Shown here: positions 3,040 through 42,697 of the stretch, piece by piece | How positions within the stretch are numbered: the first letter of the stretch is position 1 | How the letters are laid out: each line of letters starts with the position of its first letter | Source: an uncultured Eubacteriales bacterium | GTDB taxonomy: Bacteria; Bacillota; Clostridia; Oscillospirales; Oscillospiraceae | Direction of reading: 5' to 3' | DNA: 42,697 nucleotides | Assembly: GCA_949289455.1 (NCBI GenBank) | Contig: CASEOA010000075.1 | Location: 1 to 42,697 of the forward strand | Notes under the pieces: model-generated | The model's input: only the letters and a program-made list of their open reading frames with translations | Told to the model about the DNA's origin: nothing | Databases searched by the model: none | Position numbers and translations under genes: made by a program

Positions 3040-3221
3040 GGGCGGGGCTCTGTCCCCGCCCGGCTGTACCGGGGCGGGAAACGTTCCGCTAGGCGGGTCT
3101 GGGACCCGCCCCTACGCAGGCGGCACGAGCTTATTCGTAGGGGCGATTATCAATCGCCCGACGTTCCGGTTTGGGAGACGTCACGCCGGGCGGGTCTGGG
3201 ACCCGCCCCTACGCAGACGGC
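3040..3221. repeat. Cluster of small palindromic intergenic repeats
   Basis: The 3024-3262 gap holds no gene. It contains four short hairpin-forming palindromes. GGGCGGGG pairs with CCCCGCCC at 3040-3061. GGCGGGTC pairs with GACCCGCC around a TGG loop at 3092-3110 and again at 3189-3207. GGGCGATT pairs with AATCGCCC around ATC at 3141-3159. The two GGCGGGTC units are 33-base near-identical repeats (3092-3124 and 3189-3221, one mismatch), each followed by CCCTACGCAG. The spacers share ACGTTCCG. The layout is REP-like and not CRISPR, because the units are palindromic and unevenly spaced. Confidence 0.8.
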
Positions 3222-3262
3222 GCAGGTTCCTCATCTTCACTCTCAACTCCCCACTCTCCACA

Positions 3263-3297
3263 AAACAAGGGCCTGCCGGTTTGGCAGGCCCTTGTTT
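3263..3297 (-). terminator. Terminator downstream of mreB
   Basis: A perfect 15-base stem (AAACAAGGGCCTGCC with its complement, five-base loop) ends in GTTTTG on the minus strand, 11 bases beyond the mreB stop codon. It could also catch plus-strand read-through. Confidence 0.85.
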
Positions 3298-3307
3298 ACG
3301 TTCCCAT

Positions 3308-4330
3308 TCAGTTCATCTGCTTGCGGCGGGACAGGTTAATGGTGCCGTCCTGCATGGAGTCCACGTCGTCCAGGCTCTTGCCGGTGCCGTAGGCCACGCA
3401 GGAGATGGCGTCGTCGGCCACATGGGTCTCGATGCCGGTATGGGACTCGATGAGCTTGTCAAAGCCCCAGACCAGGGAGCCGCCGCCGGTCATGCAGATG
3501 CCGTTGGTGGAGATATCGGCCACCAACTCAGGGGGCGTACGCTCCAGCACCCCGTGAATGGCCTCCAGAATGCGGGTGGAGACCTCCTCAAAGGCCTCAA
3601 TCATCTCGCTGGAGGACACGGAGAACACCCGGGGCAGGCCGGTCATCAGGCAGCGGCCCTTGATCTCCACGGTCTGCTCCTCGGGGCGGGGGAACACGCA
3701 GCCGATCTGCATTTTCAGCTCCTCGGCGGTACGCTCGCCGATGAGCACGTTGTGCTTGCGGCGGATATACTTCACAATAGCCTCGTCAAACTGGTCGCCG
3801 GCGATTTTGATGGAGGTAGATTCCACGATACCGGACAGGGAGATGACGGCGATATCGGTGGTACCGCCGCCGATGTCCACGATCATGTGGCCGTCGGGCT
3901 TGGCGATGTCGATACCGGCGCCGATGGCGGCGGCCACAGGCTCCTCAATGAGGTACACCCGCCGGGCGCCCGCCTGGATGCCCGCGTCGATAACGGCCCG
4001 CTCCTCCACCTCGGTGATGCCGGAGGGGACGCAGATGACGATGCGGGGCTTGAACAGCCGGAAAGAGGTGACCTTGCGGATAAACTCCTTCAGCATGCGC
4101 TCGGTCATGTCATAGTCGGAGATGACGCCCTCCCGCAGGGGACGGATGGCCACAATATTGCCGGGGGTACGGCCCAGCATCTGCTGGGCCTCGGTGCCCA
4201 CTTTAAGCAGCTTGCCGGTATTTTTGTCGATGGCCACCACGGAGGGCTCCCGCAGCACCACGCCCTTGCCTTTTACGTAAACCAGAATGGAAGCCGTACC
4301 CAGATCGATACCGATATCTTTACTGAACAT
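3308..4330 (-). CDS. mreB: Rod shape-determining actin-like protein MreB/Mbl
   Basis: This is a bacterial actin that forms membrane-bound filaments guiding lateral wall synthesis. At 340 residues it has the usual length. Visible motifs are phosphate-1 IGIDLGTAS (6-14), phosphate-2 DIGGGTTDIAVIS (about 149-161) and the adenosine loop TGGGS (about 280). GAGGTG lies ahead of the ATG. It stands alone without mreC, mreD or minCD, the arrangement of Mbl-type paralogues. Whether it is MreB or Mbl cannot be settled from this sequence. A promoter about 85 bases upstream leaves an untranslated leader with no recognised structure. Confidence 0.95.
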   Translation of the reverse strand: MFSKDIGIDLGTASILVYVKGKGVVLREPSVVAIDKNTGKLLKVGTEAQQMLGRTPGNIVAIRPLREGVISDYDMTERMLKEFIRKVTSFRLFKPRIVICVPSGITEVEERAVIDAGIQAGARRVYLIEEPVAAAIGAGIDIAKPDGHMIVDIGGGTTDIAVISLSGIVESTSIKIAGDQFDEAIVKYIRRKHNVLIGERTAEELKMQIGCVFPRPEEQTVEIKGRCLMTGLPRVFSVSSSEMIEAFEEVSTRILEAIHGVLERTPPELVADISTNGICMTGGGSLVWGFDKLIESHTGIETHVADDAISCVAYGTGKSLDDVDSMQDGTINLSRRKQMN

Positions 4331-4413
4331 ATCTGCACCTCAAGTTCTTACTCTATCTTAATCTTAGAATGGATGATTATTCCAAAAATATGGGTTTTGT
4401 TTGAATCTATTTT

Positions 4414-4442
4414 ATTATACAGAAGCCGGCCATCCATTTCAA
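4414..4442 (-). promoter_or_regulatory. Promoter of mreB
   Basis: On the minus strand TTGAAA (4442-4437) and TATAAT (4419-4414) are spaced by 17 bases. It sits between mreB and the comF stop, so mreB is transcribed separately from comF. Confidence 0.75.
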
Positions 4443-4496
4443 CGTAAATTTCCGCTAATTTTCTTACAAATCCTTGCCTTCCGCAGGGCAGAGCGA

Positions 4497-5153
4497 CTAC
4501 CGGGCCCGGGCCAGGGTGGCGCACACCACGTCGGAAGCCCCCATGGTGCGCAGCACACGGGCGCACTCCGACAGGGTGGAGCCGGTGGTCACCACGTCGT
4601 CGATGAGCAGCACCCGCTTCCCCGCCACCAGCTCCGCATCCACCGGCTGGTAGGCCCCCAGTACGTTGGCCCGGCGCTGGGCCTCCTCCTCCAGGCCGGA
4701 CTGGGGATCGGTGTCCCGCGCCTTCCGGAGGGTCTCCACCGCCACCTTCCCCAGGGCCAGGGCGGCGGCGCTGGCCAGCAGGAAGGCCTGGTCATAGCCC
4801 CGCTCCCGTTTCCGCTGCCGGGACAGGGGCACCCAGGTAATCAGGTCGTACTTCCCCTCCAGATGGTCATGGACGCACTGGGCCACCAGCGCGCCGTAAG
4901 CCTTGTGGTAGCCCCGCAGTCCGTGGAACTTATACCGGTGGATGGAGTCCCGCACCTTGTCCTGATACCGCAGGGGCGAGACGCACAGGGAGTAAAATTC
5001 CCCGCTCTGTTCCGCCTGGCCCTCCACCAGCCAGGGCAGCTCCCGCTGGCATTTGGCGCAGAGGTGGACCTCTCCCCTGCCCAGGACCCGCCCGCAAAAG
5101 ACACACTTGGGCGGGAATAGCAGATCCAGCAGCACCCCCAGCGGCCCGCTCAT
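4497..5153 (-). CDS. comF: ComF family phosphoribosyltransferase-like protein
   Basis: This is a ComF/GntX-type protein. In naturally competent bacteria ComF assists single-stranded DNA uptake, and elsewhere the role is unclear. Two CxxC pairs (Cys17/20 and Cys32/35) form an N-terminal zinc ribbon. The PRTase domain carries the PRPP loop VLLIDDVVTTGSTL (about 181-194) and the conserved RKRERGYDQA segment. At 218 residues it has normal length. Its ATG overlaps the stop of the upstream small gene (ATGA), so the two form one translationally coupled unit. No other competence genes are seen in the window. Confidence 0.93.
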   Translation of the reverse strand: MSGPLGVLLDLLFPPKCVFCGRVLGRGEVHLCAKCQRELPWLVEGQAEQSGEFYSLCVSPLRYQDKVRDSIHRYKFHGLRGYHKAYGALVAQCVHDHLEGKYDLITWVPLSRQRKRERGYDQAFLLASAAALALGKVAVETLRKARDTDPQSGLEEEAQRRANVLGAYQPVDAELVAGKRVLLIDDVVTTGSTLSECARVLRTMGASDVVCATLARAR

Positions 5154-23041: not shown

Positions 23042-24400
23042 ATGTCCAAATCGAGAAAACGGGCGGTGGCCGCCACCTTCCTGGCCGCCGCCTTTGTGAT
23101 CACCGCCGGGTTTGCCGTCCAGGGCCACGTCCAGGCGGCCCAATACCGCCGCCAACTGGACAACGGCTACCGCTACGCCTTTGCCCAGCTGGCCACCGCC
23201 ACGGGGGAGCTGGAGACTGCCCTGACCAAGGTGAGCCACGCCACCTCTCCCGCCCTGTTTGCCGCCCTGTGCGCCCAGGCCTACGCCCAGGCCCAGGCGG
23301 CCCAGGCCGCCCTGGGCCAGCTGCCCTACGGCAACGTGGAGCTGGAGCAGACCGCCGCCTTCCTGGCCCGGGTGGGGGACTATGCCATGTCCCTGGCCCA
23401 GGGCACCTCAGCGGAGCTGGTATGCACAGACGACCACCGGGCCACCCTGGCAGCCCTGGCGGACAACGCCCAGGACCTGGCCCTTACCCTGGAGACCCTG
23501 CAAGCCCAGCTGGCCGCCGGCGCTCTGGGGCCGGAGGGGCTGGAGGAGGCCACCGCCCGGCTGGCCGCCGCCGACGGCCAGGGGCAGGAGCTGGGGGGCT
23601 CCGCCTTCCAGAGCGTGGAGGCCGACTTCCCGGAGGTCCCCACCCTGATCTACGACGGCCCCTTCTCCCAGCACCTGGAGGGTCAGACCTGCAAAATGCT
23701 GGAGGGACTGCCCCAGGTCAACGAGTCCCAGGCCCGGGCGGCGGCGGCCTCCTTTCTGGACCTGCCCCAGGATATCTTTACCCTCACCGACCGAAGCCAG
23801 GGCAAGCTGCCCACCTACGGCTTTACCGCCCTGGTGGACGGAGGGCAGCTCTACGTGGAGGTGACCTGCCAGGGGGGCCAGATCCTGGAGCTGTTCACCT
23901 CCCGCACCCCGGGAGAGGCGGTGCTCAGCCGGGCAGAGGCCAGGGAGCTGGCCTCCGGCTTCCTGGAGCGGAAGGGCTTTGCCCACATGGAGCCCAGCTA
24001 TTCTCTGGAGCAAAACGGGGTGCTGTGGGTCCATTTTGCCCCGGTGGAGGACGGGGTGTACTGCTATCCCGATCTGGTGAAAGTGGCGGTGGCCCTGGAC
24101 ACCGGGGCGGTGTGCGGCTTTGAGGGGGCGGGCTATCTCACCCACCACGGGGACCGGACCTTCCCCTCCCCCGCCGTGGACCAGCAGACCGCCCAGGCCC
24201 TGGTGGACCCCTCTCTCACCGTCCTGTCCCACCAGCTGGCCCTCATACCCACCGGTGGTGAGTACGAGGTGTTCTGCCACGAGTTCAAGTGCCAGGCCGC
24301 CGACGGCAGCCATGTGCTCATCTACGTCAACGCCCAGACGGGCAAGCAGCAGAACATCCTGCTGCTGGTGGAGGATGAGAGCGGGACACTGGTGATCTGA
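23042..24400 (+). CDS. ypeB: Germination protein YpeB
   Basis: This protein of the spore inner membrane is needed to install or hold the cortex-lytic enzyme SleB; the two are mutually dependent. At 452 residues it has one N-terminal membrane helix (about 8-27), a helical alanine-rich domain (about 35-190) and tandem PepSY/YPEB-type domains in the C-terminal half (from about 225: VNESQARAAAASFLD, SRAEARELASGFLERKG). The length matches B. subtilis YpeB. In many sporeformers sleB sits immediately upstream, but here gltX does. The start is fixed by GGGGGG 6 bases upstream. A spore-specific promoter is not resolvable. Confidence 0.88.
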   Translation: MSKSRKRAVAATFLAAAFVITAGFAVQGHVQAAQYRRQLDNGYRYAFAQLATATGELETALTKVSHATSPALFAALCAQAYAQAQAAQAALGQLPYGNVELEQTAAFLARVGDYAMSLAQGTSAELVCTDDHRATLAALADNAQDLALTLETLQAQLAAGALGPEGLEEATARLAAADGQGQELGGSAFQSVEADFPEVPTLIYDGPFSQHLEGQTCKMLEGLPQVNESQARAAAASFLDLPQDIFTLTDRSQGKLPTYGFTALVDGGQLYVEVTCQGGQILELFTSRTPGEAVLSRAEARELASGFLERKGFAHMEPSYSLEQNGVLWVHFAPVEDGVYCYPDLVKVAVALDTGAVCGFEGAGYLTHHGDRTFPSPAVDQQTAQALVDPSLTVLSHQLALIPTGGEYEVFCHEFKCQAADGSHVLIYVNAQTGKQQNILLLVEDESGTLVI

Positions 24401-39184: not shown

Positions 39185-39568
39185 TCAATGAGTTTGCTTG
39201 CAGTTGACGCAGGTCCCGTGAAAAATCAATTCATGGCCGCTGACGTCATGGCCGCTGGCCAGCAGGGCCTGCTGATCCAACGCGGGGTCATAGGGTAGCT
39301 CCAGGTCAAATACGCCGCCACAGGTCTGACAGCGGAAATGGGAGTGGGGCTCCACATTAGCGTCATACCGTTCCACCGGGAAGGCCATCCGGGTAATCGC
39401 CCCCTCGTCTGCCAGCAGGTTCAGGTTCCGGTATACCGTGCCTAGGCTCAGACTGGGGTTTTCCGGCTTCAGCCATTGATATACCATCTCCGCTGTGGGA
39501 TGCTGGTCGGTGTTCCGCAGAGTCTCATAGATCAGTTCCCGCTGACGGGAGTAGCGCTTGCCGTTCAT
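39185..39568 (-). CDS. perR: PerR-type Fur family repressor
   Basis: This 127-residue peroxide- or iron-sensing repressor has a winged helix (PTAEMVYQWLKPENPSLSLGTVYRNLNLL) followed by a metal site with His-rich EPHSHFRC and two CxxC-type structural zinc pairs (CQTCGG and CVNCKQTH). The Asn/Asp and His pattern fits PerR better than Fur, in keeping with the peroxide and superoxide genes it heads. The ATG at 39568 is preceded by GAGGTGG. A palindromic Per-box lies just downstream of its promoter, implying autoregulation. Confidence 0.9.
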   Translation of the reverse strand: MNGKRYSRQRELIYETLRNTDQHPTAEMVYQWLKPENPSLSLGTVYRNLNLLADEGAITRMAFPVERYDANVEPHSHFRCQTCGGVFDLELPYDPALDQQALLASGHDVSGHELIFHGTCVNCKQTH

Positions 39569-39594
39569 GTGCCACCTCACTTCCATTTCTTAAT

Positions 39595-39697: not shown

Positions 39698-39781
39698 CTA
39701 TCCCGTCATGTCCCCTCGCTCCATAGCCTCTTGGAGCTTTTTCAACGCTTTTTTCTCAATGCGAGAAACATAGCGACACGC
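39698..39781 (-). pseudogene. sigK: C-terminal fragment of sporulation sigma factor SigK
   Basis: A 27-residue frame reads ACRYVSRIEKKALKKLQEAM and then ERGDMTG before TAG. YVSRIEKKALKKL is the hallmark end of region 4.2 in mother-cell sigma-K proteins (intact ones read GISRSYVSRIEKxALKKL). The frame is closed on its N-terminal side by TAG at 39784-39782, exactly where the mobile DNA starts. The missing rest of sigK should be on the right side of the element, beyond this window. Related factors SigE, SigG and SigF end differently (SYISRLEK or QVSRLEK). The assignment rests on this short motif. Confidence 0.72.
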
Positions 39782-39800
39782 CTATTGTAAACGATGCCCT

Positions 39801-41378
39801 CTAAGAAATCGCCTCCAGCTCGTGGAAGCGGAATTTGATGATGATCTCTTTTTCCTCGGTCAGCTCCACCCGTTCGATGAGGCTGACCAGCAATTCCCGA
39901 CTGGTCAGTGCCGAGTCCAGAAACTGTTTCACCAGCGCTTTGGCTTTTTCTTCGGTGTTTACCGATTGCTTTGCCTGTTCCTCTAAGCTCTTCAGCCGAT
40001 CTTCCAGAACTGTGCGGTCCATCTTGACCTTCTGATAGATGCGCTGAAAGTCCTCTTCGGATAGCAGGCCATTCAGCCGGTCCATGTACATCTGATCCAG
40101 ATTGGTAGTCAGAGCAGTGATTTTGGATTGCAGCGCTTGCATCTCCACTTCACAGCTGGACGCCTTGCTGGCGTTCTCCACAGCTTCTTCAGCGATTGGG
40201 CGCAGCCGGTCAGGATTCAGATAGGCTTGGCAGACCTCTCGCACCTTGGCAAGCACGGCTTCATTCACCGTTTCTTCCTTGATGGAATGACAAGTGCAAA
40301 CGCCAGCTTTAGTGAAGCGTTGGTAGGTTCGGCAGACAAAGAACAGGCGATCCTCACCAGCAGCATTCTTGCGGTTGAGTACCGCCATGGGATAGCCACA
40401 CTCGTGACAGAAAATCAGCCCTTTTAGCAAGAAGTCGTAGGTTCGGCTTCGGGTGTGCTTGCGGCTGTTTACCAGCATCTGCACTTTCTGAAAGGTCTCC
40501 GGGTCAATGATCGGCTCATGCGTTCCTTCTACTACGACCCAGTTTTCCGGTGATTGCCTCAGACATTTTTTGGATTTGTAGCTGATCTTCACCATGCGTC
40601 CCTGCACCATATTACCGATGTAGGTCTCGTTTTTCAGCATTTCGGAAATGCGCTCGCTACTCCATAAGCCGGTGTAAGGGCCAGGGGTTCCAACCTTCCA
40701 ACCGCAGTAGGTGGCTGGTGTGGGGACACCTTCTTCGTTGAGTGTAGTCGCAATCTTGCGGCAGCTCATACCTGAAAGAGCCAGGGCAAAAATCCGCCGC
40801 ACTACCGGAGCCACTTCCTCGTCAATGACGATCTTGTTTTTCTCGGTTGGGTGCATCTTGTACCCATACATGGGCTTGCCGCCGATGAACTGCCCCTTCC
40901 GTTGCTTATCTCGCTTGACACTTTTGATCTTCTTGGAGATGTCCTTCGCGTACATGTCGTTCATGATGGCACGGAATGGGGTGATGTCGTTGGCTATGGA
41001 GTCTACGCCAGTGTCGATGCCGTCCAGCAGGGAAATATACCGCACCCGATGTTCCGGAAAGTACCGCTCCATATAGTGACCGGTCATGATATAATCGCGG
41101 CCCAAACGGGAAAGGTCCTTGGTGATGACCATATTGACCTTTTTAGTTTCAATGTCGCCAATCATCCGCTGGAAGCTGGGACGGTCAAAACTGGTGCCAC
41201 TCCATCCGTCATCTACATAAGTATCGAAGACGGACAGGCGGTGCTGCTGAACAAACTCTCGCAGCAAAGATTCCTGGTTCTGGACACTCTGGGATGGTCC
41301 TTCGTTTTCATCCTCCTTTGATAGTCTGATGTATAAAGCCACATGGTAATCCATGGGGTTGCTTATCTCTAAGTACAT
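39801..41378 (-). CDS. Large serine recombinase (SpoIVCA-like position)
   Basis: This 525-residue site-specific recombinase has a catalytic resolvase domain at the N-terminus with nucleophile Ser20 in ALYIRLSKEDE. Further motifs are VDDGWSGTSFDRPSFQRM and ITKDLSRLGRD. A recombinase domain (about 165-290, KGQFIGGKPMYGYKM) is followed by a zinc ribbon (CHECGYP with later Cys in VCTCHS) and a C-terminal coiled coil (about 390-495). The start at 41378 follows AGGAGGT by 5 bases. It ends 20 bases from the sigK fragment, the position of a recombinase beside its own attachment site. It probably excises or inserts the element. The gene is intact. Confidence 0.92.
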   Translation of the reverse strand: MYLEISNPMDYHVALYIRLSKEDENEGPSQSVQNQESLLREFVQQHRLSVFDTYVDDGWSGTSFDRPSFQRMIGDIETKKVNMVITKDLSRLGRDYIMTGHYMERYFPEHRVRYISLLDGIDTGVDSIANDITPFRAIMNDMYAKDISKKIKSVKRDKQRKGQFIGGKPMYGYKMHPTEKNKIVIDEEVAPVVRRIFALALSGMSCRKIATTLNEEGVPTPATYCGWKVGTPGPYTGLWSSERISEMLKNETYIGNMVQGRMVKISYKSKKCLRQSPENWVVVEGTHEPIIDPETFQKVQMLVNSRKHTRSRTYDFLLKGLIFCHECGYPMAVLNRKNAAGEDRLFFVCRTYQRFTKAGVCTCHSIKEETVNEAVLAKVREVCQAYLNPDRLRPIAEEAVENASKASSCEVEMQALQSKITALTTNLDQMYMDRLNGLLSEEDFQRIYQKVKMDRTVLEDRLKSLEEQAKQSVNTEEKAKALVKQFLDSALTSRELLVSLIERVELTEEKEIIIKFRFHELEAIS

Positions 41379-41399
41379 GCCATACCTCCTGAGATAAGC
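41361..41399 (-). repeat. Inverted repeat around the recombinase start
   Basis: GCTTATCTC (41361-41369) and GAGATAAGC (41391-41399) are a perfect 9-base inverted repeat separated by 21 bases. The loop contains both the AGGAGGT ribosome site and the ATG of the recombinase. In the mRNA it would form a hairpin around the initiation site. Confidence 0.65.
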
Positions 41400-41414
41400 G
41401 GCCATTCATCGATA

Positions 41415-41549
41415 TTATTGTATCGTGACTTTTCCATATCCGGCAAGGATGCGGCGAAGATACAGCCGAAAGGACTCTTCCAGAAGCTCCGGCAGTGCTC
41501 TCTCGGCTGACTCAAAAACACAACGTACAACAGGGGCGTTTTTCAGCAT
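41415..41549 (-). CDS. Small element protein upstream of the recombinase
   Basis: This 44-residue protein beginning MLKNAPVVRCVFES has the leucine-rich helix LPELLEESFRLYLRRILA. Very short proteins of this style often precede serine recombinases in clostridial mobile elements; I know of no function for them. AAAGGAGG lies 8 bases before the ATG at 41549. A longer frame beginning at 41774 crosses a terminator and is not real. The stop is 36 bases before the recombinase start, so the two are probably cotranscribed. Confidence 0.7.
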   Translation of the reverse strand: MLKNAPVVRCVFESAERALPELLEESFRLYLRRILAGYGKVTIQ

Positions 41550-41626
41550 GGTATCATCCTCCTTTACGATATAGAAAAGAATATGTGTAAATCCGCTAAG
41601 CATTGCCTGTCCATTGAAAAAGGCAT

Positions 41627-41656
41627 AAAAAAATCGCCACCCGTTCGAGTGGCGAT
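41627..41656 (-). terminator. Terminator after the 106-residue gene
   Basis: ATCGCCAC pairs with GTGGCGAT, followed on the minus strand by a run of seven T. It separates the integrase-side genes from the recombinase-side genes. Confidence 0.82.
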
Positions 41657-41665
41657 GAGAGTTGC

Positions 41666-41986
41666 TTACGAAATAGAGGAAGCATTTGCACAGACTGCGT
41701 CCCAATCGGATACACCATATCCTCGCATAGAATCCGCTGCGATCAAAACAGCGAATACAAAGGGACGAATCCACTCGTCGCTGGCGCTGCTGAGGATGGA
41801 TTGTATGTTCAAGTCATCATCCAGCTGTAAGCGGATTTGGAGAAGCTCTTTTTCGGTTTGAAACAATGCCGCAAATTCGTTTGGGGCTTCCTCCTCGATA
41901 GAGAACGTCTGTGAACTGTGCAGGATTTGTGTTGCTTGTTGGTATAGGGCGGTAGTACTGAAATCGTGAATATCCGGTAATTTCAT
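41666..41986 (-). CDS. Uncharacterised mobile-element protein
   Basis: I do not recognise this 106-residue protein. It looks helical and acidic, with no membrane segment. Notable segments are LYQQATQILHSSQTF, NEFAALFQTEKELLQIRLQL and a C-terminal FVFAVLIAADSMRGYGV. It starts 6 bases after the integrase gene ends and is preceded by AAAAGGAG, so it is part of the same transcript. It could be a small regulator or excision accessory of the integrase, but there is no sequence evidence for either. Confidence 0.68.
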   Translation of the reverse strand: MKLPDIHDFSTTALYQQATQILHSSQTFSIEEEAPNEFAALFQTEKELLQIRLQLDDDLNIQSILSSASDEWIRPFVFAVLIAADSMRGYGVSDWDAVCANASSIS

Positions 41987-41991
41987 GGTTT

Positions 41992-42639
41992 TTACTCCTT
42001 TTCAAGAATCGTGTTGATGGTTTCGGAACTTTTCAGTTTGGTTGAAAAATCAAGGTGGACATATAAATCCGCAGTCGTTTGATAGGTACTGTGTCCCAGC
42101 CACTGCTGCACTTCCAGCAATGGAACCCCAGAGGAAATCAAAATCCCGGCACAGCTATGTCGCAGATCATGAAACCGTATCTTCCGCAGGTTATTTTTCT
42201 GCAAAAAAGACTGAAAGCGGCGGCTCAACTGATCGGGGCGGAAAGGGACACCTCTCTCGTCCAAGCAAAGCCAACCGCGTTCCTGTTGATACCGGCGTAA
42301 TAGGGGGAGTATATTTTCTGGAATGGGTAAGGTCCGATAACTCGCCTTTCGCTTCAATACTTCCCGGCTGTGCACTTTGCTTTTTCCATGCAAAGACGTT
42401 TGCGTGACGGCGCAGCGGACAGAGAGCAATTTGTGCTCTAAATCCAGTGCTTCCCAGCGAAGTCCCAGGACCTCACTGCGCCGCAGACCGAATACAAGAG
42501 CCAACGCCACAGGAAGCTCCAGAGTTTGTCCATGGAGTAGATTCAAAAGCTGGGAAGTGAGCCCTTCCCAAAAAAACGGACATGAAAATGCCGAAAAAAA
42601 CGGAATGAATCGTTGAGTTTCTGCGAGATGCTCGTTCAT
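41992..42639 (-). pseudogene. Tyrosine recombinase, 5' truncated
   Basis: Only the catalytic half of a phage-type integrase remains (from about residue 27: LTSQLLNLLHGQTLELPVAL). Catalytic residues are present: Arg in FGLRRSEVLGL, His and Arg in FHDLRHSC, His in LGHSTYQTT and Tyr in ADLYVH. The arm-binding and core-binding domains (about 150-180 residues) are missing. The first 25 residues (MNEHLAETQRFIP...) do not resemble an integrase and are probably the end of an inserted sequence whose ATG happens to be in frame. This fragment cannot be an active integrase as it stands. Confidence 0.8.
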
Positions 42640-42697
42640 GCTGCCTGAGCCGCCAGGAGGTTGGCCTCAAACTGCGATGGAGACAGCCAATCCAGGG
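42636..42697 (-). pseudogene. C-terminal end of an IS3-family-like transposase, cut by the window edge
   Basis: A 19-residue tail LDWLSPSQFEANLLAAQAA and stop (42638-42636) resembles the end of IS3-family OrfB or integrase-core transposases (HSALGYLSPxxFE). It continues past the window edge. Its stop overlaps the ATG of the truncated integrase. Between it and the integrase core lie two copies of AAAAAAACGGA (42570-42580 and 42594-42604), possibly near the IS end. The short length limits certainty. Confidence 0.5.

Follow-up and report, generated by a model that had tools for sequence, protein, structure and literature searches.

Does the short sigma factor fragment near the end of the contig analysed here mark a sporulation gene that is split by a mobile element? 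The window, 42,697 nucleotides long, is the whole of contig C75 of G000, a draft genome of an uncultured member of the Oscillospiraceae (2.25 Mb in 111 contigs, 83.9% complete). A preliminary description, made from the sequence alone, had taken the fragment for the tail of the mother-cell sigma factor gene sigK, cut off by an element similar to the skin element of Bacillus subtilis. We consider it highly probable that a mobile element was inserted into sigK by a large serine recombinase (LSR) and that its excision rebuilds the gene. Comparison with relatives supports a skin-like element whose insertion point in sigK would lie away from the middle of the gene, because the 5’ halves end at the same codon, the cores are common, inverted repeats are present and the halves rejoin in frame, and because the site has an LSR clade of its own and a genome of the same genus shows the empty site in the same gene neighbourhood.

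On the minus strand of the window, 27 codons (AC, then RYVSRIEKKALKKLQEAMERGDMTG) stay open between an in-frame TAG and a stop codon. The fragment had been described as a closed stretch of 27 residues with the SigK signature; the open codons and the SigK end are there, but only about 23–24 of the residues are native. Native SigK begins approximately at the Tyr-Val codons, and the R and the residues upstream of it stem from the attachment arm of the element. The stop codon reported at the very boundary is the in-frame TAG within this element-derived arm. Intact SigK proteins of the same genus end in GISRSYVSRIEKKALKKLEEAMEA (G017, with G019 and G010 closely alike) and in GISRSYISRIEKKALKKLEAAMEGRT (sibling G018). 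A comparison with relatives carrying an uninterrupted sigK had been proposed, and G018 provides it: its whole sigK is followed, after a gap of ~2 kb, by same-strand genes for PerR (82% identical), desulfoferrodoxin (92%) and rubrerythrin (94%), which are also the genes downstream of the fragment in the window. Since G018 shares this neighbourhood, the fragment occupies the position of the end of the whole sigK in the sister genome. The window fragment is the 3’ end of sigK.

It is extremely unlikely that sigK is not split and that the fragment results from misassembly or is the tail of another sigma factor gene. The draft nature of the genome (84% complete) and the end of the contig inside the element would be compatible with such an artefact, but the same junction is found in many separate assemblies, including records titled Flavonifractor plautii ATCC 29863, Oscillibacter sp. 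ER4 and Pseudoflavonifractor sp. 60, and also in the single-contig genome G119. The tail of another sigma factor was rejected as a candidate: a 37-aa query containing the fragment scored 42.2 bits on the fragment and 23.4 bits on the runner-up SigE, and SigE, SigF, SigG and RpoD of G000 possess their own C-termini. A complete sigK elsewhere in the genome, named beforehand as the result that would contradict a split gene, was looked for with the SigK model TIGR02846 over the draft of G000, and no intact SigK was found; the matches were SigE, RpoD, SigF, a split SigG and one further match on contig C11. G000 also encodes SpoIIID (109.6 bits, cut-off 111.5). The flanking YpeB gene mentioned earlier is present as well (window 23042–24397), with a score of 290.4 bits, under the curated cut-off of 303.55.

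The LSR gene adjoins this sigK half, and the element lies within the sigK coding sequence. Its protein has the Resolvase, Recombinase and zinc-ribbon domains of a large serine recombinase of the phage-integrase type, and Ser29, which we take to be the catalytic serine, is invariant in 16 of 16 aligned sequences. The preliminary description of an intact recombinase on the same strand holds; the LSR ORF ends 25 bp from the fragment (20 bases had been given). Similarly, the lower GC content beyond the boundary was found again (0.47–0.52 in the element, ~0.57–0.66 over most of the window), but the drop already starts at ~38.5–39.5 kb, ahead of the element boundary. The contig terminates within the element.

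Among 150 family genomes surveyed, 22 (G000 included) encode an LSR that shares 59% identity or more with that of the window, the next best match reaching at most 42%, and a sigK 3’ fragment lies directly downstream of the LSR in 18 of the 22. The corresponding 5’ halves were sought with TIGR02846 at E 1e-20 in 20 of these genomes (G000 and G020 left out): in 11 a 5’ half ends at model position 213–214, and in 4 a middle piece ends at 213–217. All 22 junctions inspected show ISRSYV followed by element DNA with an early stop. This agrees with the different attachment site in sigK suggested earlier, as the 5’ halves of the relatives stop at SRSYV, around residue 212, at a site with its own LSR clade. 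A wider scan yielded at least 79 LSR loci, and window-type LSRs occur in records titled with the three named organisms given above and in many metagenome bins. Among the 44 loci listed at ≥50% identity a strict pattern detected the 3’ fragment downstream of the LSR in 30 and a 5’ half facing the LSR in 5; among the 35 listed at 37–42% identity each arrangement was seen once. At one further locus of the 44 the contig ends too soon to show the fragment (L098). Of the other eight, four show it by eye (L108, L110, L123, L125), L130 has it 2 kb further on, L095 lacks it by the strict pattern, and L115 and L128 are discussed below. A reversed insertion at the five flipped loci was rejected; since the GT at the junction is no palindrome, we read these as loci with the LSR at the other end of the element.

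The insertion site, called site C in the following, lies at about residue 212 of 229, with the GT in the Val codon of SYVSR. Its 3’ side most commonly reads ATCGTTTACAATAGGCG-N-GCTATGT and its 5’ side TATGTATC(C/G)CGC...CTTAATGTAAACGAT; these are the two arms of one inverted repeat, as expected for the attP of an LSR. When both ends were compared for each element, GTATCGCG was common to them in G188 and GCTATGT in L091 and L101. We joined eight elements at GT within the genomes of the relatives (L133, although both ends are present, was left out). All eight joins, G119 included, gave an open in-frame SigK, so that rejoining in frame at a short core was found in eight relatives’ elements; these measure 5.3–9.8 kb in seven cases and 21.8 kb in G119. 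Relative to the intact SigK of G017 the joined proteins are identical at 200/229 (G109), 150/229 (G188), 134/224 (L091), 165/228 (L104) and 116/221 (L119) positions, and the partial ones at 112/165 (L101) and 63/119 (L130), the latter two joins beginning from middle pieces.

A small ORF precedes the LSR gene (coordinates in Table 1). A strict pattern picked up kin of this ORF at 39 of 47 loci, and at several of the other 8 a similar ORF can be seen; the 44-aa protein of the window has no match in Pfam or NCBIfam. Upstream of it lies a promoter-like motif, which 20 of 45 operons carry in a loose form, compared with 1.3% of shuffles and 1.8% of random windows. Its strict form has 7 matches in five genomes (2 for the reversed pattern): four are located upstream of ylbJ (G000, G017, G018, G002), one upstream of yqfC (G017) and one at the operon of the window, which together with ylbJ accounts for the two copies in G000. 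In B. subtilis and C. difficile, both ylbJ and yqfC belong to the sigma-E genes (PMC517825, PMC3789822). The motif likely points to the mother cell, but does not tell whether SpoIIID activates or represses. In addition GGACA(A/G)AC is found in many sigK upstream regions of the genus; its GGACA presumably resembles a SpoIIID box. The SpoIIID consensus is WWRRACARNY, for which a paper search gave nothing.

We infer excision itself, its cell type and timing and the role of the small protein as follows. The LSR would have inserted the element within the Val codon of SYVSR, at its GT dinucleotide. Downstream of the 5’ half, element DNA would bring an early stop, and sigma-K from the unexcised gene would lack the end of region 4.2, which recognises the -35 element. 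A sigma-E-type promoter, perhaps together with SpoIIID, would activate the operon of small ORF and LSR in the mother cell, and excision would take place in this cell. The LSR and a directionality factor, maybe the 44-aa protein, would then recombine the two attachment sites, the element would leave as a circle and sigK would be rejoined in frame. In G000 the 5’ half would lie past the end of the contig.

The split sigK is constrained like a working gene. The median dN/dS of the split 5’ halves is 0.100 (19 of 21 pairs gave a value), close to the medians of 0.119 for intact sigK (6 pairs) and 0.124 for mixed pairs (28 pairs). Values range from 0.012 to 0.133 for the LSR and from 0.10 to 0.67 for the small ORF (11 pairs each). 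Strong purifying selection on both the 5’ halves and the LSRs argues against a plain integrative element for which a conserved part of sigK serves as attB and which simply breaks the gene, in a host lacking sigma-K or sporulation and without regulated excision. Such an element would also not account for the frame being restored in every joined element, for the three sigK pieces of G119, which after two insertions still give a largely conserved SigK (see below), for the promoter motif in common with ylbJ and yqfC, or for SpoIIID, SigE and SigF still being encoded in G000. We therefore regard this explanation as improbable, even though no excision was seen, a recombinase gene of the tyrosine type accompanies the LSR gene in the element, and near-identical LSRs adjoin DNA other than sigK at L115 and L128.

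Several observations weigh against a sigK element excised in the mother cell. The truncated sigK partner that had been predicted for G000, i.e. the 5’ half, was sought in the 83.9%-complete draft and not found. In the family survey the 3’ fragment is missing downstream of the LSR in 4 of 22 genomes (L020, L032, L036, L037; in L032, where the element is flipped, the 3’ fragment lies at the opposite end), and 5 of 20 have neither a 5’ half nor a middle piece. The LSRs of L115 and L128 are 92% and 98% identical to that of the window, and in these bins (named Erysipelotrichaceae and Spirochaetales) they run into non-sigK DNA; either such LSRs also use another type of insertion site, or the binning is at fault. 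Recent insertion could also yield the low dN/dS of the split halves, and the value of 0.67 for the small ORF belongs to the pair of the window with its nearest kin. The loose motif reaches no more than the 20 operons given above; one strict match (G018) lies at an unrelated ORF, alongside the 2 matches for the reversed pattern, and the proteins behind the shared motif score below the NCBIfam cut-offs (YlbJ, a partial protein, 223 of 304.65 bits; YqfC 73.9 of 77.8). Finally, SpoIIID of B. subtilis represses ylbJ and yqfC and activates spoIVCA (PMC517825), and with such opposite effects the shared motif leaves the part of SpoIIID unsettled.

Table 1. Coordinates of the features in the window and of those in other contigs and loci
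Feature	Location	Strand	Evidence or remark
PerR/Fur-type regulator, host gene downstream of sigK	39185..39586	-	domain match; same neighbour downstream of intact sigK in G018
sigK 3’ end (RYVSRIEKKALKKLQEAMERGDMTG, stop), 25 codons from RY + stop	39698..39775	-	comparison with intact SigK, synteny with G018
Inferred crossover dinucleotide GT in Val codon	39768..39769	-	sole bases common to both ends in all compared elements
Element-derived attachment-site arm (CATCGTTTACAATAGGCGTGTCGCTAT) with in-frame TAG	39770..39796	-	kept in relatives; mirrors arm downstream of 5’ halves
LSR, 534 aa	39801..41405	-	domain matches, no internal stop
Small ORF, 44 aa (MLKNAPVVRCVFESAERALPELLEESFRLYLRRILAGYGKVTIQ), candidate directionality factor or regulator	41415..41549	-	conserved upstream of LSR
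Promoter-like motif GGACAGGCAA-N17-CATA	41582..41612	-	upstream of small ORF
Tyrosine recombinase ORF (Phage_integrase domain, 215 aa), element cargo	41992..42639	-	domain match
G119 sigK pieces	C1:1133687-1134020; 1144957-1145254; from 1167010
Site A loci	L072, L073, L074, L101
Site B loci	L049, L053, L054, L056, L077-L081		core AAATG, arms TGTGAGGATAG / CTATCCTCACA
Split sigG, G000 contig C99 (L009)	halves 1150-857, 4541-5047; LSR 3077-4531	halves -, +; LSR +
Non-sigK DNA beside window-type LSRs	L115 after 11602; L128 after 754

Two further attachment sites in sigK were observed in the genus, site A at around residue 66 and site B at around residue 111; the LSRs of either site form a clade of their own. 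The clades come from a quick tree with 54 LSRs, which gave long-branch warnings and of which only the per-site clades are used. In it the LSRs of site A (4, support 100), those of site B (9, support 100) and those of the sigG interruption described below (7, support 98) make up one clade each; the site C LSRs (20) form one clade with the five flipped ones and one of 41% identity (support 96). Those LSRs of sites A and B that matched the LSR of the window are 21–26% identical to it. Among 20 genomes of the genus, G000 included, sigK is intact in 4 and split in 11, where intact SigK was separated from SigE by the start of the TIGR02846 alignment and the SigE of G000 alone was checked with its own model. 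Five genomes were placed in neither class (G001, G003, G005, G008, G012); G001 looked split, but its sigK runs off the contig. The split genes comprise seven at site C (G000, G002, G006, G007, G011, G013, G016), of which G002 and G011 are also split at site A, three at site B (G004, G009, G014) and one at site A only (G015).

Sites A and C are thus combined in G002 and G011, and likewise in L101. In G064, G065 and G132 sigK pieces are bounded by sites B and C, as they are in L130, L131 and L173, the last being a viral-contig record. The same is seen in G119, a single contig of 4.31 Mb (100% complete) with sigK in three pieces. With AAATG (in the middle piece AAACG) and GT as the points of joining, these give a protein of 229 aa, of which 196/229 residues are identical to the intact SigK of G017.

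We clustered the ORFs of 38 element pieces by protein. The LSR was found in 37 of them and a small protein in 7, a 112-aa ORF recurred in 5, a tyrosine integrase and an ABC ATPase in 4 each, and a 260-aa protein in 3. No other cluster reached 3 pieces, and by this clustering the LSR is the only protein common to most of them. The tyrosine recombinase near the end of the contig (region 41992–42697) gives the sigK element a second recombinase; related proteins occur in the elements of G119, L091 and L092. The 106-aa ORF of the element (window 41666–41986) has no match in Pfam, NCBIfam or PHROGs. Bearing on a possible phage origin of the elements, LSRs of at least 48% identity were found in 8 of 80 listed viral-contig loci (L167–L174), and L169, L170, L171 and L173 carry sigK pieces as well.

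We set the element beside skin and the skinCd element of C. difficile by description; the LSRs at sites A and B of the genus form clades other than that of the window. Insertions at differing places in sigK have been described for B. subtilis, C. difficile, the B. cereus group and an Alicyclobacillus phage (PMC5025042, PMC10745906, PMC13141910). Skin, with the recombinase SpoIVCA, resembles the element of the window in its insertion into sigK, in carrying the LSR and, as proposed here, in the rejoining of the gene by excision. Its recombinase gene is controlled by sigma-E and SpoIIID (PMC5025042, PMC517825), which matches the motif proposed for the operon of the window. Skin recombines at AATGA (PMC10745906), similar to the core AAATG of site B, and the site of the window lies ~100 codons further on; skin is also prophage-like and 48 kb long, compared with 5.3–21.8 kb for the site C elements joined at both ends. 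The skinCd element likewise occupies its own site in sigK, has half sites that are inverted repeats, and comes with a small partner protein: next to the LSR CD1231 it encodes the directionality factor CD1234, 72 aa without database similarity (PMC5025042). In C. difficile the LSR is constitutive and the partner is expressed in the mother cell only, whereas small ORF and LSR of the window look like one operon; sigma-K of C. difficile has no pro-sequence (PMC5025042), whereas SigK in the genus of the window has an N-terminal hydrophobic stretch, probably a pro-sequence. In the B. cereus group (island IV; AH820, J7, J62) sigK insertions occur at more than one position and are excised during sporulation where tested (PMC10745906). 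Those of AH820, J7 and J62 lie at nucleotide 423, and the part of this paper available mentions no insertion at the 3’ end, no double insertion and none of the hosts studied here. The short gin element of B. cereus ATCC 10987, which carries no prophage genes, also places an LSR (GirC) and a small directionality factor (GirX) in a mother-cell gene; its target, by contrast, is gerE (PMC5595907). Searching the open-licence literature by title and start of the abstract, we found no paper on insertion at site C, on double insertion or on sigK elements in these hosts.

In G000 and seven relatives we also observed that the forespore gene sigG is cut, between FSTYGVPM and IVGEIRR, by an LSR of its own clade. 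The sigG 3’ half lies just downstream of the LSR in G000, G018, G004, G092, G022, G087 and G023 and 3.1 kb downstream in G153. Rejoining gave a 256-aa SigG in all four genomes tried, identical to the intact protein of G013 at 235/256 (G018), 232/256 (G004), 232/256 (G000) and 200/256 (G153) positions. In G000 the two halves are mutually inverted on contig C99, so that recombination would flip the intervening DNA and not excise it; this layout comes from a single draft contig and may be a misassembly. The halves of G022 lie mid-contig on different contigs (L283 at ~8310 on C29, L284 at ~8117 on C13), which speaks for a very large element or for a rearrangement of the region. No paper on an interrupted sigG was found in the open-licence literature. 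The elements treated in PMC4191935 reside in genes of the mother cell, which dies. The DNA of the forespore is inherited, and an interrupted sigG therefore poses a different problem.

Tentatively, and with more doubt than confidence, we propose that sigK can be locked by two independent elements simultaneously and sigG by a third LSR lineage, which would place the late sigma factors of both spore compartments under DNA-rearrangement locks in these gut Clostridia. If so, a doubly split sigK would need two separate excisions for sigma-K, and every round of sporulation would require loss, re-insertion or back-flipping of the sigG element; the inverted halves in G000 would permit a reversible flip in place of loss. 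Within one genus sigK appears to have been targeted repeatedly, at no fewer than three attachment sites that each have a recombinase lineage of their own. Elements can stack within the one gene, and it is these stacked sigK insertions that a specialist should be told of first. In genome-based prediction of sporulation for this family sigK may be missed or called a pseudogene. With intact, singly split and doubly split siblings at hand, it becomes testable whether these elements are parasites or a selected developmental switch.

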